This document shows, one piece after another, positions 3,822-17,852 of a stretch of 54,395 nt of DNA (its first letter is position 1; each line of letters begins with the position of its first letter). A program made the position numbers and the translations under genes. The notes under the pieces were generated by a model. The model saw nothing but the letters and a program-made list of their open reading frames with translations. It had not been told where the DNA came from and did not search any database. This stretch comes from a virus, in the IMG/VR virus record IMGVR_UViG_3300042922_001429, positions 1 to 54,395 of that record; one strand, given 5' to 3'.

Positions 3822-4040
3822 ATGTCCGGATTGAACTATGGGAAAACCTTCAGAAGATTTTGTGCTGAACAGTTCCCAAACGAAGAAGGAGTTTTCTTCA
3901 GTAAAGTTTCAAATAAATGGGTTGTTCGAATTGCGAATCTTGAAAATGACAAAAGAATAAAACCATTTAGATCAGTAGTGCAATTCGATAAAGAGGAAGA
4001 AGCTCAGGACAAATTTAGAGAGATCAAAAATCAAAAATAA
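3822..4040 (+). CDS. small hypothetical protein, possibly DNA-binding
   Basis: A 72-residue protein with alternating beta-like strands (GVFFSKVSNKWVVRIAN) and an amphipathic C-terminal helix (EEEAQDKFREIKNQ). The pattern of three strands and a helix with a conserved-looking KWVVRI resembles small AP2-like DNA-binding folds, but this is a shape argument only. It lies just upstream of the recombination genes. Confidence 0.5.
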   Translation: MSGLNYGKTFRRFCAEQFPNEEGVFFSKVSNKWVVRIANLENDKRIKPFRSVVQFDKEEEAQDKFREIKNQK

Positions 4041-4061
4041 TAATCAGAAAAATATTTCACA

Positions 4062-6074
4062 ATGAATAACAAAGTCACACTTAGAAAGCTTTCCCTGTTA
4101 AACTTCAAAGGGATTAAGAATTTAACCATTGATTTCGATAACAATACGAATATCTATGGAGATAATGGTACCGGTAAAACATCAGTATTCGATGCGTTTA
4201 CCTGGTTGCTTTTCGGTAAAGATTCTACAGACAGAAAAGATTTCGAACTGAAGACTTTAGATAGTAATAATGAAGTGATTCCTAAGATCGATCATGAAGT
4301 TTCTGCTGAGATCGAAGTGAATGGAGAGCTGACAACTTTAAAAAGAGTTTTCCGTGAGAAGTGGGTTAAAACAAAAGGTGCTTTGGAATCTGAGTTTTCA
4401 GGAAACGAAACTCTGTACTATTGGAACGAAGTGCCTTTGTCAATGAAGGAATATGGAAATAAAGTTTCTGAAATTCTTGACGAGAAAGTTTTCAAGCTTA
4501 TTACTTCTCCAACGGCTTTCAATTCTTTGAAATGGCAAGATAGAAGAGATGTTTTGGTGAAAATTGCCGGAGATATTTCTGACGCTGATTTAGCTGAAGG
4601 TAATGAGGAATATATTCAGTTAGTTTCTCAACTGACTAATAAGACTCTTGACGAATACAAAAAGCAGATTGCTGCAACCATCAAAAAAGCAAAGGATGAT
4701 ATCAAAATGATCCCTACCAGAATTGATGAGGTTGACAGAAGTAAGCCGGAGGCTGTTGATGCTGATAATATCTATGCTACAATCGCTTACAAAGAAGAGG
4801 AGATTCAGAACATCGATAATCAATTAACTGATCGTTCAGCGGCTTTTGATGAAGTTATCAACAAAAGAAATGCTAACCAGGACGAGATCTTTAAATTAAG
4901 AACTAAGATCAATACAATCAACTTCGAAATAGCTGAAAAAGCTAAAAACGAAGCGAAATCCGGAGATTCTAAAGCCGATCAAATCCAGAAGCAGATCAAC
5001 GATAAAAAATCGAATGAACTTCAACCTGCAGAACAAAAACTGATCAGATTAAAATCTGAAAAATTAACTCTTGAAACTTCAATTTCTTCTTATGAAAAAA
5101 CTATTCAGGATAAAAGAGAATTGTGGAATGTTGAGAATGCTAAAAACTTTGTATTCTCAGACGATAATGCAGTTTGTCCTTGCTGCGAGAGACCGCTTGA
5201 TGCGTCGACGGTAGAAAATCAGAAAGCTGAATTACAAACCAAATTCAATACTAATATAAAAGGTATTCTTGATGGTATCAATGCAGAAGGTAAAGCAATT
5301 TCCGATAAAAAAGCGAATGCTGTATCTGAATTATCTGAGGTAAATACCAGAATTGCAAGCGGTGAAGCTTTCATCAAAGAAACTACAGAAACAATATCAG
5401 TTTTAGAGTCTGAATTGAAAACTGCAAAATCAGAAGCAACCACTACAGTATCTGTGGATGATCTTATTGCAAAATATACTTCTGAAAGTTCTGAACTATT
5501 CACTCTGAAAGAGCAGGTAGGAATATTGGAAGCTAAAACTTTCGAACTTCCAGACCCGAATGATCAAAATGATCTGAGAACTCAAAAGCAAACTATCAAT
5601 TCTGAGATTCAAGTTTTGAGAAATTCTCTTCAAGCTAATTATCAAATTCAGACAGCAAACAACCGTATCGCTGAACTTCAAAAAGAAGAATCGATGCTCG
5701 CTCAGGCAATCGCTGATATTGAGAAAACTCAGTACACTATTGACAACTTCATAAAGCTTAAAGTAGATACAATCGAAGATAGAATCAATGAGAAATTCTC
5801 ATTCGTAAAATTCAGATTGTTTGAAAAGCAGATTAACGGTGCGTTGATCGAATGTTGTGATGCTCTTGTCAATGGAGTTCCTATTTCCGACGCGAACACC
5901 GCTTCAAGAATCAATGCAGGAATAGATATTATCAATACGCTTTGCGAGTTCTACAATGTATCTGCTCCGATCATTATCGACAATAGAGAATCAGTTGTAA
6001 AACTTATCGAAAGCCCTTCACAAATCGTCAATCTGTTCGTATCACCAGACGATAAAAAATTAAGAATAGCATAA
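4062..6074 (+). CDS. SbcC/Rad50-like AAA ATPase with zinc hook
   Basis: A 670-residue SMC-type ATPase. Residues 1-60 carry the N-terminal ABC half with LSLLNFKGIKNLTIDF and Walker A GDNGTGKTS (33-41). Long heptad-rich coiled coils follow, interrupted near residue 372 by CPCCERPLD, a CxxC zinc hook as in Rad50/SbcC. The C-terminal half has a Walker B-like IIIDNRES near residue 640. It is shorter than bacterial SbcC (about 1000 residues) and no SbcD-type phosphoesterase is encoded nearby. Its position just before RecT points to DNA end processing for phage recombination. Its last base overlaps the next start. Confidence 0.85.
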   Translation: MNNKVTLRKLSLLNFKGIKNLTIDFDNNTNIYGDNGTGKTSVFDAFTWLLFGKDSTDRKDFELKTLDSNNEVIPKIDHEVSAEIEVNGELTTLKRVFREKWVKTKGALESEFSGNETLYYWNEVPLSMKEYGNKVSEILDEKVFKLITSPTAFNSLKWQDRRDVLVKIAGDISDADLAEGNEEYIQLVSQLTNKTLDEYKKQIAATIKKAKDDIKMIPTRIDEVDRSKPEAVDADNIYATIAYKEEEIQNIDNQLTDRSAAFDEVINKRNANQDEIFKLRTKINTINFEIAEKAKNEAKSGDSKADQIQKQINDKKSNELQPAEQKLIRLKSEKLTLETSISSYEKTIQDKRELWNVENAKNFVFSDDNAVCPCCERPLDASTVENQKAELQTKFNTNIKGILDGINAEGKAISDKKANAVSELSEVNTRIASGEAFIKETTETISVLESELKTAKSEATTTVSVDDLIAKYTSESSELFTLKEQVGILEAKTFELPDPNDQNDLRTQKQTINSEIQVLRNSLQANYQIQTANNRIAELQKEESMLAQAIADIEKTQYTIDNFIKLKVDTIEDRINEKFSFVKFRLFEKQINGALIECCDALVNGVPISDANTASRINAGIDIINTLCEFYNVSAPIIIDNRESVVKLIESPSQIVNLFVSPDDKKLRIA

Positions 6075-9579: not shown

Positions 9580-9846
9580 ATGGAAAAGCATACGAAAGTA
9601 TACACTGAGTACTTTCCTTCTCATTCGGGGTTCTATCACTGCGAGATTTGTAAAAATCCTGCAACTGAAATTCATCACATAAAAAGAAGATCGGAATTCG
9701 GGAGCAAAACAAAAGATCAGCAAGATAAAATTGAGAATCTTATCGCACTGTGTAGAACCTGCCATGAGAAAGCACACGCAAATATTTTCACCAAAGAGTT
9801 TTTAAATGAAACTCACCAAAAAACAATGAAAATCTATGAAAGTTAA
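9580..9846 (+). CDS. small HNH-family zinc protein
   Basis: An 88-residue protein with the HNH core: C21-x2-C24, H32-H33 (the catalytic-type ATEIHHIKRRSE segment), N53 in ENLIALC, and C58-x2-C61-H62. The four Cys form the usual structural zinc site and the ALCRTCHEKAH ending is characteristic. It may be a DNA nickase acting in replication or recombination; the family also includes terminase-associated HNH proteins, but this one is far from the terminase genes. It overlaps the next gene by 11 bases. Confidence 0.78.
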   Translation: MEKHTKVYTEYFPSHSGFYHCEICKNPATEIHHIKRRSEFGSKTKDQQDKIENLIALCRTCHEKAHANIFTKEFLNETHQKTMKIYES

Positions 9847-12204: not shown

Positions 12205-12324
12205 ATGGAATTGATTGAAAAATTAGCAGAACAAAAAACTGAATGGTTGAAGGATTTCAAGGAAACCTATCAGGCAAACAGAGAAGAGAAGAAACGGATT
12301 TATAAACTGGATAAATTAAAATGA
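12205..12324 (+). CDS. very small helical protein
   Basis: A 39-residue frame starting at the ATG 5 bases after the dnaB stop (MELIEKLAEQKTEWLKDFKE); the open frame extends further upstream but only inside dnaB. It is highly charged and helical, and its end overlaps the nuclease start by 4 bases, which supports translation. Possibly a small accessory protein of the helicase or nuclease; no family recognised. Confidence 0.45.
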   Translation: MELIEKLAEQKTEWLKDFKETYQANREEKKRIYKLDKLK

Positions 12325-12758
12325 CCTGGAGTAAAGCACTTCTCCAAAAATTGGAAAAAGAAGGGAGAGTAAAGAAAGTTGATTTTCCAAAAGAACCGAA
12401 AAACAAAGTTGTCATTCCCAAAGAGATCGGAAAATATAAACTTCACATAATCTCGGTTTTGGAAAGATCAGGATTAAAAATTCAAGAAGAATATCAATTT
12501 GATGAGGTCCGAAAGTTCCGGTTCGACTGGGCGATTGAAAAATATAGAATAGCGATTGAATTTGAAGGAATAATAAGTGAGAAAAGCCGTCATACTACCA
12601 TAGAAGGGTTTTCTAAGGATTGTGTAAAATATAATCTCGCTCAATGCAATGGATGGACAGTGCTGCGATACACGGTGTTAAATTATAAAAATATTGAATC
12701 TGATTTAAAAAAAATTATAGACTATGAACGAAAATTGGAAAGAAGTGAAAGGTTTTGA
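12321..12758 (+). CDS. PD-(D/E)XK phage nuclease with exchanged C-terminus
   Basis: A 145-residue nuclease-fold protein. RKFRFDWAIEKYRIAIEFEG (about 65-83) supplies the metal-binding D69 and E80/E82, followed by SRHTTIEGF, the CVKYNLAQCNGW helix and VLRYT (114-118), the signature of small phage restriction-endonuclease-like nucleases found near dnaB. Likely roles are recombination intermediate processing or mismatch-type nicking. The last 30 residues are followed by a homing endonuclease gene, and a second alternative C-terminus lies beyond that gene (13257-13331), so the present tail came with the inserted element. The active-site core is intact. Confidence 0.75.
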   Translation: MTWSKALLQKLEKEGRVKKVDFPKEPKNKVVIPKEIGKYKLHIISVLERSGLKIQEEYQFDEVRKFRFDWAIEKYRIAIEFEGIISEKSRHTTIEGFSKDCVKYNLAQCNGWTVLRYTVLNYKNIESDLKKIIDYERKLERSERF

Positions 12759-13263
12759 GGGTTTTTATGAAGTTTCTGAAACTGGAATTGTTAGAACAGT
12801 AGAAAGGGTTTCTAACCGAAAGTCAAAACTTGGAAATCCGTCATCAATTGTAATAAAAAGTAAGGTGAAACTAGCAAATTTATCAAAGGTGGGATATTTA
12901 ACAATTGCTTTAGTGAAGGAAAATAAAACATACACAACATATCTTCACAGAATCATCGCAGAAGCCTTTGTTGATAGGAAAAAAGATGAGAAATACGTAG
13001 TAAATCATATTAATGGAATCAAGACTGACAATAGAATTGAAAATCTTGAATGGGTTACATCTTCCCAAAATAATATTCACGCCTTAGATAAAAATTTAAG
13101 AAGAACTAGAAAAGATGTTGATGAAGCATTTGTGAATTCTGTAATGGAATTAAAAAACAAGAATTTAACAAATAAAAATATTGCTGAATTGTTAAACTCT
13201 ACCGAAAATAGAGTTCAGGGAATTACAAGTGAGAGAACTTATAAAAGAATTAGAAAGTCGTAA
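12724..13263 (+). CDS. NUMOD4-HNH homing endonuclease
   Basis: A 179-residue homing endonuclease. Residues 4-26 form a NUMOD4 motif (NWKEVKGFEGFYEVSETG, then RT). The HNH core is YLHRIIAEAF (H75), VVNHINGIKTDNRIENLEWV (N94, H95, N103, N107), followed by a C-terminal helix-turn-helix-like DNA-binding module (LTNKNIAELLNSTENRVQGI). It starts inside the 3' end of the nuclease gene and ends exactly in the orphaned copy of that gene's original tail. Such enzymes cut the unoccupied allele and spread by recombination. A selfish insert in the early operon. Confidence 0.88.
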   Translation: MNENWKEVKGFEGFYEVSETGIVRTVERVSNRKSKLGNPSSIVIKSKVKLANLSKVGYLTIALVKENKTYTTYLHRIIAEAFVDRKKDEKYVVNHINGIKTDNRIENLEWVTSSQNNIHALDKNLRRTRKDVDEAFVNSVMELKNKNLTNKNIAELLNSTENRVQGITSERTYKRIRKS

Positions 13264-13331
13264 GATACACAGCTGATAATTACCTAGAGATAGAAAACGA
13301 TTTAAAACTATTAATTGAAAAAGTAAAATGA
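13257..13331 (+). pseudogene. orphaned original C-terminus of the nuclease gene
   Basis: A 25-codon remnant read in its own frame: VVRYTADNYLEIENDLKLLI, then EKVK and a TGA. It aligns position by position with the tail now carried by the nuclease (VLRYTVLNYKNIESDLKKII). The TGA at 13329-13331 overlaps the helicase-methyltransferase ATG at 13328 as ATGA, the coupling used elsewhere in this operon. It begins inside the last codons of the homing endonuclease, so the insertion boundary is the VLRYT codons. It has no start of its own and is presumably untranslated. Confidence 0.75.
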
Positions 13332-15514
13332 GATACGAAGAATTTTTAAACAGCAAATCACGAAAGATTATTGAATCTGGTTTTGATATATCCTCCGAAA
13401 GCTTAAATCCTAACATGTTCGATTTTCAAAGATATATTGTTTGCAACGCATTAAAAAAAGGAAAATTTGCAATTTTTGCAGATTGTGGCCTAGGGAAAAC
13501 ATTGATGCAGCTTGAATTTGCGCATCAGGTAACTATTTACACACAGAAACCAGTGCTAATCCTTTGTCCATTGGCGGTATCGGGACAAACTATTAAAGAA
13601 GGTGAAAAATTCGGCATTGATGTTTATAAATTTGATTTTGAATGTCTGCCAAAAAATAATAAACCGGATATTTTTATTATCAATTACGAGCAGCTGGAAA
13701 AGATTGATACTTCTATTTTTTCTGGAGTTGTATTAGATGAAAGTTCAATTCTAAAAAATTTCACAGGTTCTTACAGAAATCTGATTATCTCAAATTTTGA
13801 AAACACAGAATATAAGTTAGCGTGTACTGCTACACCATCCCCTAATGACGAATTAGAGATAGGAAACCATGCGGAATTTCTCAATGTAATGACATCAATG
13901 GATATGCGAGCTGTGTTTTTTACCACTGATAAGGAAATAATAAAAGGAAACAAATACAGACTTAAAAACCATGCTAAAAATGAGTTTTATGCCTGGATAA
14001 ACAGTTGGGCGGTGATGATTTCAAAACCTTCTGATTTAGGATTTACGGCAAAAGGATATGATTTACCAGAATTAAACTTTTTTGAAAAGCAAATACAAAC
14101 AGAAAAGAAAGAAAACGGAAAGCTTTTCAATGATTTCTCTATATCTGCTACTCAGTTTAATTCGGAATTGAGAATCACAAAAGTTCAACGGATTGATGAA
14201 GTTGCATCAATTGTAAATTCTTCAAATGAAAATTTTATTATCTGGATAAAGCAAAATGAAGAAGGTGAACTGCTAAGGTCTTTAATTCCAGATGCCATAG
14301 AAGTGAAAGGCTCTGATACTCCAGAATTTAAAGAAAAACACCTACTTGGTTTCGCTAGAAATGAATTTCGTGTTTTAATAACTAAAACAAAAATTGCTCA
14401 ATTCGGATTGAATTATCAGAATTGCAGAAATCAAGTATTTGCATCATTAGATTTTTCATTTGAAGGACTTTATCAAGCAATTAGAAGAAGTTACAGATTT
14501 GGCCAGAAACAGTCAGTAAACATCTTTTTAATAACAACTGATACAATGCAAAACGTGATTGACAACATTAAAGAAAAAGAACAAAAATTTATAGACATGC
14601 AAGAAGGAATTATAAAAAACATGAATTATTTACAAGATGATTCAAATGAGATAAAAAGAGAAAGAGTTGTTACAGATTGGTTTACGCTTATGAACGGTGA
14701 TTGTGTTGCGGAGACAAAAAAGCTGGAGGAAAACTCAATTGATTATTCTTTTTTCAGTCCACCTTTCGGAGCGTTATATGTTTTCTCAAATGATCCTAAG
14801 GACATGAGCAATGTAGCGAATGATGAAGAATTTATGCAACATTTTAAATATCTCATAATTGAGCTTTTCAGAGTTTTGAAACCTGGTTGTTTATGTTCGT
14901 TGCATATTATGCAATCAACTACATTGCTGGGTAAAGATGGATTTTATTCAATAAAAGATTTCAGAGGTGAATTGATAAGAGCTTTTCAATCTGAAGGTTT
15001 TTATTTCCACGCTGAAAATATGATTAGAAAGGATCCTAAAACTGCAGCAATCAGAACGAAAAACAGACAATTGATGCACGGAACCACTAAAGTAGACTCT
15101 TCGATTGTAAGACCTGGTTTAGCGGACTTTATTATCACATTCAAAAAGCCAGGAAAGAGAGAAGTCCCAGTACAAAACAATATCCCTTTTGATTTGTGGT
15201 GTAAAATCGCTGAGCCAGTATGGATTGATGTTGAAGAAGGTGATACACTTGAATTTAGAAGCGCAAAAGACCATAAGGATGAAAGACATCTGACGCCTAC
15301 CCAACTAACCCCTATAAAATGGTGCTACATGATGTGGGTAAACAAAGGAGAAACTGTTTTCAGTCCTTTTTCAGGTATTGCTTCTGAAGGTGTAGTAGCA
15401 ATCGAAAATGGAATGAAATACAAAGGTGTTGAGTTGAAAAACTCTTACTTCGATGTTTCCATTAAAAATTTAAATAATGCAGTTGAGAGTAAGAAGCAAC
15501 TTACTTTGTTTTAA
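13328..15514 (+). CDS. SF2 helicase fused to DNA methyltransferase
   Basis: A 728-residue two-part enzyme. The N-terminal half is a SNF2/DEAD-like helicase: Walker A DCGLGKT (52-58), LDESS (136-140), ACTATPSPND (165-174) and motif VI QAIRRSYRFGQ (383-393). The C-terminal half is a beta-class amino-methyltransferase: catalytic SPPFG (477-481) and, near residue 680, the AdoMet site FSPFSGIASEGVVAIENG. Proteins of this type in phages probably modify phage DNA against host restriction, the motor acting in translocation or target search. It is coupled to the ancestral end of the nuclease gene. Specificity cannot be read from sequence. Confidence 0.85.
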   Translation: MRYEEFLNSKSRKIIESGFDISSESLNPNMFDFQRYIVCNALKKGKFAIFADCGLGKTLMQLEFAHQVTIYTQKPVLILCPLAVSGQTIKEGEKFGIDVYKFDFECLPKNNKPDIFIINYEQLEKIDTSIFSGVVLDESSILKNFTGSYRNLIISNFENTEYKLACTATPSPNDELEIGNHAEFLNVMTSMDMRAVFFTTDKEIIKGNKYRLKNHAKNEFYAWINSWAVMISKPSDLGFTAKGYDLPELNFFEKQIQTEKKENGKLFNDFSISATQFNSELRITKVQRIDEVASIVNSSNENFIIWIKQNEEGELLRSLIPDAIEVKGSDTPEFKEKHLLGFARNEFRVLITKTKIAQFGLNYQNCRNQVFASLDFSFEGLYQAIRRSYRFGQKQSVNIFLITTDTMQNVIDNIKEKEQKFIDMQEGIIKNMNYLQDDSNEIKRERVVTDWFTLMNGDCVAETKKLEENSIDYSFFSPPFGALYVFSNDPKDMSNVANDEEFMQHFKYLIIELFRVLKPGCLCSLHIMQSTTLLGKDGFYSIKDFRGELIRAFQSEGFYFHAENMIRKDPKTAAIRTKNRQLMHGTTKVDSSIVRPGLADFIITFKKPGKREVPVQNNIPFDLWCKIAEPVWIDVEEGDTLEFRSAKDHKDERHLTPTQLTPIKWCYMMWVNKGETVFSPFSGIASEGVVAIENGMKYKGVELKNSYFDVSIKNLNNAVESKKQLTLF

Positions 15515-16914: not shown

Positions 16915-17058
16915 GTGAATATTAAAGACAAGGAAATATTTTTCATATTATATTTTGTGATTTGGTCAACTAGCCTGGTGAAAGCTGGGTTAGTTTTTAA
17001 AGAAAAGAGTAAGCCGAAAATCTCAAGAGTAGGCAACATTAAAACAATATTTATTTTT

Positions 17059-17484
17059 ATGAGAAAGCTATTATTTTTCGTTCTTATCAGTGCCATGAGT
17101 CTAGTTTTATTTTCTTGCAGCAATGAAACATCAAGTGTTACACCGGAACAACCAACACTTGAAAAATTACAAAAAATTCAAGCAAAAGAAGGAGAAGAAT
17201 TAACTCCTGAAAGTGAAAAAGCTTTAATTGATGAAGCTTTGGCATTTGTTGAAAGATCAAATATCAACAATGAAGATGAGCCACAAACTGAAATCCAAAG
17301 AATTCTTTGTCATACTAAATATGGAGCAACTCACGGTCACGCTTGTGTTTGGGAGCAGGGATTTTTAGTAAATGTAGAATGGCAGCCAAGTAGTATTTAT
17401 CAAAACCCTGATGGATACTGGAACGTGCCGCCTAATCCAAGTTTAAGTTATTCTGGTACTGTTGTGACAAAATGCAATTGTTAA
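17059..17484 (+). CDS. lipoprotein, possible conversion gene
   Basis: A 141-residue lipoprotein from the ATG at 17059; the frame is open further upstream, but this start gives a clean signal (MRKLLFFVLISAMSLVLFSC) with the acylated Cys at residue 20. The mature chain is acidic first (residues 25-80), then a C-terminal domain rich in Cys, His, Trp and Gly (CHTKYGATHGHACVWEQGF and KCNC at the end), which may be disulfide-bonded or metal-binding. It stands alone between a leftward gene and a terminator, as conversion genes often do. Family not recognised. Confidence 0.6.
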   Translation: MRKLLFFVLISAMSLVLFSCSNETSSVTPEQPTLEKLQKIQAKEGEELTPESEKALIDEALAFVERSNINNEDEPQTEIQRILCHTKYGATHGHACVWEQGFLVNVEWQPSSIYQNPDGYWNVPPNPSLSYSGTVVTKCNC

Positions 17485-17521: not shown

Positions 17522-17594
17522 GGTCTTTTAGCTCAGTTGGTAGAGCGCCACGCTCATAACGTGGATGTCGTAGGTTCGAATCCTGCAAGGACCA
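17522..17594 (+). tRNA. tRNA-Met (anticodon CAT)
   Basis: A full cloverleaf: 7-bp acceptor stem GGTCTTT with AAGGACC (one G-U), D arm GCTC/GAGC, anticodon stem CCACG/CGTGG with loop CTCATAA (CAT at 17555-17557), variable ATGTC, T arm GTAGG/CCTGC with TTCGAAT, discriminator A. CCA is not encoded. A CAT anticodon could also be an Ile tRNA with modified C; elongator Met is the default call. Confidence 0.92.
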
Positions 17595-17705
17595 CAACCT
17601 GTTGAATGTCTATCTGAATTGGGGGTGATACATGATAGAGTCCGAGGAACCCTCCACCGTGTCGGGTTGTTGAGAAAAGGCTGACAGCTGGAAAGACAGC
17701 AAATT
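17595..17705 (+). ncRNA. structured inter-tRNA RNA, possible pseudoknot
   Basis: The 111 bases between the two tRNAs have high internal complementarity. TCTATC (17609-17614) pairs with GATAGA (17634-17639), and GGGGGT in its loop (17621-17626) can pair with ACCCTC (17649-17654), an H-type pseudoknot. ACAACCT (17594-17600) can close it with GGGTTGT (17664-17670). A further AGCTG/CAGC hairpin follows at 17687-17700. No T-loop TTCGAAT is present, so it is not an ordinary tRNA. No class recognised. Confidence 0.4.
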
Positions 17706-17777
17706 GTCAAGTTGCCCGAGAGGAAAGGGAGTTGGTTGCAACCCAAATGTCCAACGGTTCGAATCCGTTACTTGACT
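17706..17777 (+). tRNA. tRNA-Cys (anticodon GCA)
   Basis: Acceptor stem GTCAAGT with ACTTGAC, D arm CCC/GGG, anticodon stem GTTGG/CCAAA (outer pair mismatched) with loop TTGCAAC giving GCA at 17738-17740, variable TGTCC, T arm AACGG/CCGTT with loop TTCGAAT. The discriminator is T, the base expected for tRNA-Cys. CCA is not encoded. The weak outer anticodon-stem pair makes it slightly atypical, as often seen in phage tRNAs. Confidence 0.85.
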
Positions 17778-17852
17778 CAATGCAGATTAGCTACCGGAAA
17801 TTGCGTCTGTATGATTCTCATGTTTAATTGAGTTTTCATGGTTATTAGTTTT

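Follow-up and report, generated by a model that had tools for sequence, protein, structure and literature searches.

Homing genes are thought to persist either between genes or hidden within introns and inteins. In T4 mobA/gene 60 and Aeh1 mobE/nrdA, an HNH gene does lie inside a phage coding gene, and the host gene is split into two working pieces. In designs of home-and-rescue drives, the rescue is recoded so that it escapes cutting. A further arrangement is known from fungal mitochondria, where mobile open reading frames replace the C-terminus of atp6, atp9, cox2 and nad3 in Allomyces macrogynus and Glomus sp. (PMC3630166). The insertion sites of the T4 genes are listed in Table 1 of a review (PMC2988022), and tail replacement was not met in the passages retrieved by term searches of that review or of papers on Skunavirus HNH genes (PMC12724721) and phage nucleases (PMC10448857). 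More generally, a term search over literature in which subscription journals are thinly covered returned no phage report of C-terminus replacement.

Here we describe such an arrangement in a 54,395-nt stretch of viral DNA, positions 1-54,395 of IMGVR_UViG_3300042922_001429 (hereafter the window). A first-pass annotation had recognized a nuclease gene, a NUMOD4-HNH gene and an orphan frame whose TGA lies over the ATG of the next gene, and all three are found where it placed them (Table 1). The nuclease reading frame contains WTVLRYTVLNYKNIESDLKKII, then continues as DYERKLERSERF up to a stop at 12756-12758, and it overlaps the start of the HNH gene (12724) by 35 nt. The annotated DLKKII tail is indeed present, but it is not the terminus, as the frame goes 12 codons further. 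The orphan frame reads VVRYTADNYLEIENDLKLLIEKVK and then stop, with its TGA (13329-13331) overlapping the helicase-methyltransferase ATG (13328-13330). Elsewhere, the window carries a second small HNH gene (9580-9846, 88 aa, PF01844) upstream of the replication genes, a tRNA-Met (CAT, 17522-17595), a tRNA-Cys (GCA, 17706-17778) and a match to the DUF805b cis-regulatory RNA (17004-17035, 38.7 bits), the last within an ORF at 16915-17484 and before a lipoprotein-like reading.

Table 1. Features of the nuclease locus in window coordinates; the right edge of the 12560..12723 segment is the HNH start codon.
Feature	Position	Strand	Evidence
Hybrid nuclease gene, 145 aa, MTES_1575/DUF559/VSR-like	12321..12758	+	ORF, invariant columns, family Pfam matches, AlphaFold model
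Nuclease codons 1-80, recipient-type	12321..12559	+	87% identity to insert-free L019, breakpoint, tree 97/94
Putatively imported, co-converted nuclease 3' part including new tail RYTVLNYKNIESDLKKII	12560..12723	+	Identity, tree, AU test
Free-standing NUMOD4-HNH homing-endonuclease gene, 179 aa	12724..13263	+	Pfam NUMOD4/HNH_3, phrog_59, junction comparison
Orphan tail, the original nuclease 3' end, now non-coding	13261..13331	+	Nucleotide match to insert-free relatives
SNF2-like helicase - N6/N4 DNA methyltransferase gene	13328..15514	+	Pfam SNF2-rel, Helicase_C, N6_N4_Mtase

The identity of the orphan is established by relatives that lack the insert. These were obtained from scans of viral and bacterial contigs, the closest lying in Chryseobacterium genomes, as prophages, or in virus records, and the HNH site is empty in L019, L001, L020, L004, L005 and L009/L002. 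It had been predicted that an insert-free nuclease would run directly into the orphan sequence and be coupled to the helicase-methyltransferase gene, and both expectations are borne out. In the relatives, LRYT runs straight into an orphan-type tail: in the 54 nt spanning RYT through LLI, the orphan DNA matches L005 at all 54 positions, L004 at 53, L001 at 52, L020 at 51, and L019 and L009/L002 at 49, while the present tail matches the same insert-free relatives at only 31-33 of 54. With the stop codon included, the orphan and L019 agree at 64 of 69 nt. L001 has no insert, and its nuclease stop and the ATG of the same helicase-methyltransferase gene (MRYEEFLKNK...) overlap; the tail together with the start of this gene is 93.8% identical to the window over 97 nt; the insert-free L003 and L010 share the gene order and the junction. 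An insert-free relative with the present tail was looked for among these relatives, and none was found, the tail KNIESDLKKII occurring in no insert-free relative examined. Thus, as the match to the coding tails of relatives demonstrates, the orphan is the ancestral tail, left behind non-coding. The two tails also resemble each other, as had been claimed, with a protein alignment score of 60, well above chance: this score was reached by one of 1,915 mismatched tail/flank pairs, and that sole pair had a value of 169, the score of a mis-parsed locus (L039). The insertion also looks recent, because 54 nt of the orphan have remained identical to those of a relative.

The nuclease gene upstream of the insert is chimeric. 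Its identity to L019 is 87% up to position 12559 and drops to 55% between that point and RYT, and the segment at 12560-12723 has 55-58% identity to the recipient group and 80% to L003. The max-chi2 breakpoint against L019 lies at 12559 and was matched by none of 2,000 permutations; against five other relatives, breakpoints fall between 12543 and 12572. In a tree of codons 1-80 the window groups with L019, L001, L009, L004 and L005 (support 97/94), and in a tree of codons 81-122 it groups with L003, L011 and L154 (support 100/99). Forcing codons 81-122 into the recipient group was rejected by the AU test (p = 7e-18), as was forcing codons 1-80 into the L003/L011/L154 group (p 0.005). Based on the breakpoint near 12559 and these incongruent trees, the putative imported block is about 12560-13260, comprising 38 nuclease codons, the new tail and the HNH gene, and the reading frame of the hybrid nuclease is intact through its foreign C-terminus. 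Entry at the VLRYT codons, as originally proposed, therefore holds for the insertion point but not for the start of the foreign DNA, which begins about 106 nt upstream (~12559).

L003 and L010 combine the VLNY codons of the present tail with an orphan-type end and lack the insert; therefore, the VLNY allele type is not confined to insert carriers, and we dropped it as a strict mark of HNH carriage. Related TxLNY and TVINY variants are found in distant relatives. Since VLNY occurs without this HNH gene and the nuclease alleles of the family are generally mosaic (e.g., L005), some of the mosaic structure may be older than the insertion. The site codons of the present tail differ from those of recipient-type tails (L001, L005) at 8 of 21 nt; in L003/L010 and in L011 these codons are like the present tail (18 of 21 nt), and the remainder is like the orphan (27 of 33 and 30 of 33 nt, respectively). 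The hybrid tail of the insert-free nuclease in L003 and L010 (positions 4001-4411 in each) may be what was left behind when recombination between the tail copies removed the HNH gene. In Chryseobacterium sp. SSA4.19 (L011:4001-5130), a VLNY-tail nuclease overlaps by 46 nt with a different HNH-like gene downstream, and an orphan tail is lacking; this is an apparent second homing-type gene at the same place.

In the AlphaFold model of the nuclease (mean pLDDT 78.6), the predicted fold is alpha-beta-beta-beta-alpha-beta-alpha, an order of helices and strands that in this model fits a PD-(D/E)XK / VSR-like (EDxHD) nuclease, and the candidate catalytic residues D69, E80, E82 and H91, which occupy invariant columns, are kept in the hybrid. 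The same predicted model places the insertion point within the last core strand (residues 113-117), and the final helix (122-144) is contributed by the tail. Pfam matches to MTES_1575 and DUF559 are weak, the best MTES_1575 match (E 1e-4) being in relatives rather than in the window protein. The best PDB fold match of the predicted model is the catalytic domain of I-Bth0305I (E 0.013, TMt 0.68), and the protein encoded at 12321-12758 matches phrog_9084, annotated as 'homing endonuclease' (E 2.8e-5). Because of these two resemblances, one homing-type nuclease gene may have been invaded by another. A close homologue (E 5.8e-65 or better) is present in two of the 173 Chryseobacterium genomes searched, and this sporadic, accessory distribution lends no support to the suggestion that the insertion spared an essential gene.

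The HNH reading frame has complete NUMOD4 (E 4.6e-10) and HNH_3 (E 1.1e-14) domains, both past the curated Pfam cut-offs, and its protein matches phrog_59 (HNH endonuclease, E 2.6e-40). To the right of the insert there is no co-conversion: the window becomes homologous to insert-free alleles at 13261, so that the HNH stop TAA (13261-13263) is host-gene sequence. A single-sequence search of viral contigs with the HNH protein found no donor allele carrying this gene, and a search of phage DNA gave short HNH matches only. The closest HNH relatives are at most 47% identical over their best segments, and in 320 Weeksellaceae genomes searched with the HNH protein the best identity among the high-scoring matches was 38%.

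The layout of the window locus is repeated in a second prophage and in three further host genes. The second prophage (L040/L154, the same as IMGVR_UViG_2888282617_000002, L320) is from Weeksellaceae and was reached through the search of the 320 genomes followed by a survey of tail duplications. It carries the same nuclease, whose present tail reads RYTVLNYTDFEKDLNGII..., followed through an ATGA overlap by a NUMOD4-HNH gene that is 33% identical to that of the window; behind the HNH gene lies an orphan frame reading DNYLDIESDLKEIVK and then stop, and the right junction is about 12 nt deeper into the nuclease gene than that of the window. In Lactococcus phage phiQ1, a phrog_19907 gene (function unknown) ends in FAPRKRVIFK and overlaps an HNH gene, and the orphan FAPRKRLKCN, also closed by a stop, lies in another frame across the HNH stop. 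The insert-free phages P087, LW33 and AM6 end in FAPRKRLK(C/Y)N and stop, the orphan type; LW33 equals the phiQ1 orphan over the orphan's first stretch, and the identity of the phiQ1 host gene to LW33 falls only in the last 60 nt. A RecB-type exonuclease gene (phrog_2139, L179) has its cysteine-rich end twice, one copy (GEDTKCLMYCPVAQFCP) upstream of the HNH gene and one (GEDTKCDSYCPVSDFCP) downstream (two-tail score 96); this allele is found in several contigs, and insert-free relatives are at 55-75% identity. Finally, in a Chryseobacterium genome (L027), the host gene ends in ITIDLNKSLIFEIL and stop, followed by a frameshifted HNH gene and then by the orphan FNPDKTLIFEIL and stop, and its homologue in L039 ends in TFHPDRTLIFEIL and stop, the orphan type. 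In this locus, the C-terminal part of the HNH gene is the frameshifted part, situated between the imported and the orphan tail (L027:1345-2100), which suggests a degenerate stage of the homing cycle.

In our survey of 129 non-redundant testable NUMOD4/HNH loci, five scored at least 40, where mismatched pairs lead one to expect 0.6. Two of the five, the window and L179, are clear cases, and L246 and L299 are doubtful. The fifth, L039, is an artefact of parsing (minus-strand score 169, with the HNH end set before its start) and was discarded; the matches at L146, L131, L246 and L299 were low-complexity or chance-like and were left uncounted. Our support for phiQ1, L027 and L154, which were recognized below the threshold of 40 or by an earlier survey, comes from their relatives and not from the score. 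A minority of NUMOD4/HNH loci thus show the tail pattern, and most do not. As the same arrangement occurs in four other phage or prophage gene settings, tail replacement seems to be a repeated means by which such genes spread and keep the host gene unbroken.

We propose, with a probability of roughly 0.8, that this locus arose by free-standing homing with co-conversion of a diverged host-gene tail. The NUMOD4-HNH gene would have entered a prophage nuclease gene within the codons (LRYT) for its last core beta-strand, after a cut at or near LRYT that was presumably made by this HNH protein; the cut site is assumed to be the insertion point, although the free-standing enzymes of phage T4 cut hundreds of bases away (PMC2988022). 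Repair would then have used as template a donor allele whose HNH gene lay directly behind a diverged nuclease 3' end, bringing in about 106 nt of upstream donor nuclease, the donor tail and the endonuclease gene. Copying would have ended at the cut on the right, so that the recipient's original tail was left unused and the restored nuclease would end in a full C-terminal helix. The site codons were changed in the process (TACACGGTGTTAAAT for TACACAGCTGATAAT), possibly providing protection from the element's own endonuclease.

A variant of the same homing idea is a one-ended event, in which one end of the cut recipient invaded a donor whose intact nuclease is simply followed by an HNH gene, while microhomology or end joining sealed the other end, such that the tail duplication was made here and is not part of a heritable cassette. 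It accounts well for the right side, where homology begins exactly at 13261 without co-conversion, and L011, with an HNH-like gene behind an intact VLNY-type nuclease and no orphan tail, is the kind of donor it needs. Moreover, the ~12-nt difference between the right junctions of the window and L154 would not be explained by simple copying of a single fixed cassette, and favours some end joining. An inherited habit explains more easily why the anatomy is shared by two prophages, with 33%-identical HNH genes at almost the same site, and by other host genes; however, repeated one-ended events would give the same recurrence. We regard this variant as a serious contender, though on balance the less probable course. 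Some phage HNH homing genes could be natural 'home-and-rescue' drives that recur across unrelated phage genes, the unit being the endonuclease plus an altered, immune rescue tail, with loss through tail recombination yielding hybrid cut-resistant alleles like those of L003/L010; we offer this generalization tentatively, at slightly less than even odds.

Two unequal tails in one place could also be the remains of tandem nuclease copies, if the HNH gene and a deletion had removed most of the second copy and left its 3' end. However, no second copy was noticed beside the nuclease in the relatives read, the orphan starts exactly at the end of the HNH gene, the present nuclease is chimeric with a breakpoint at 12559, and the same anatomy is found in unrelated genes, all of which make this origin highly improbable. 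HNH genes are often carried in introns, and the insert might accordingly be a group I intron or another spliced element, with the orphan tail as the true second exon. Against this, Rfam at gathering thresholds finds no intron in the window, the two tRNAs and the DUF805b element being its only matches, and the insert is an ORF with its own start and stop that consists almost wholly of HNH coding sequence. Because the upstream reading already gives a complete tail, splicing is unnecessary, and we consider this explanation very improbable indeed. That a piece of non-coding DNA resembles the nuclease tail by chance, conceivable for tails of 18-24 residues, is ruled out for practical purposes by the insert-free relatives, with their 54 of 54 nt identity to a coding tail and the kept TGA/ATG junction, and by the mismatched-pair nulls.

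Free-standing homing with tail co-conversion would represent a third way of persistence in phages, in which the element carries a spare, altered end for the gene it strikes, and a natural counterpart to engineered home-and-rescue drives. It would also explain abrupt C-terminal mosaics in phage genes, which could otherwise be mistaken for ordinary recombination. Orphan tails are missed by gene finders, and hence more cases are likely in public genomes.

Among known systems, the fungal mitochondrial ORFs are alike in that a free-standing endonuclease gene lies in a coding gene that is completed by a foreign C-terminus, and in that the native C-terminus stays downstream and resembles that of close relatives (PMC3630166). 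They differ in being mostly LAGLIDADG genes, with one GIY-YIG, in mitochondria, whereas the present elements are NUMOD4-HNH genes in prophages and phages; here, in addition, the HNH start overlaps the restored tail and the host gene supplies the HNH stop. The seg and mob genes of T4 are likewise free-standing HNH or GIY-YIG genes in phage genomes with co-conversion of flanking markers, but they lie between conserved genes and cleave hundreds to thousands of bases away (PMC2988022). In mobA/gene 60 and mobE/nrdA an HNH gene is inserted within a phage coding gene, as here, but in our case a foreign tail makes the upstream piece complete. The engineered HomeR drive shares with the window the logic of a nuclease cassette directed at a gene for which it also brings the rescue (PMC7968924); the window element is, in contrast, natural, protein-only and found in phages, and its immunity through an altered tail is presumed. 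Overall, tail replacement of the fungal mitochondrial kind is seen here in a prophage and phage HNH version, documented by several cases together with their insert-free alleles.
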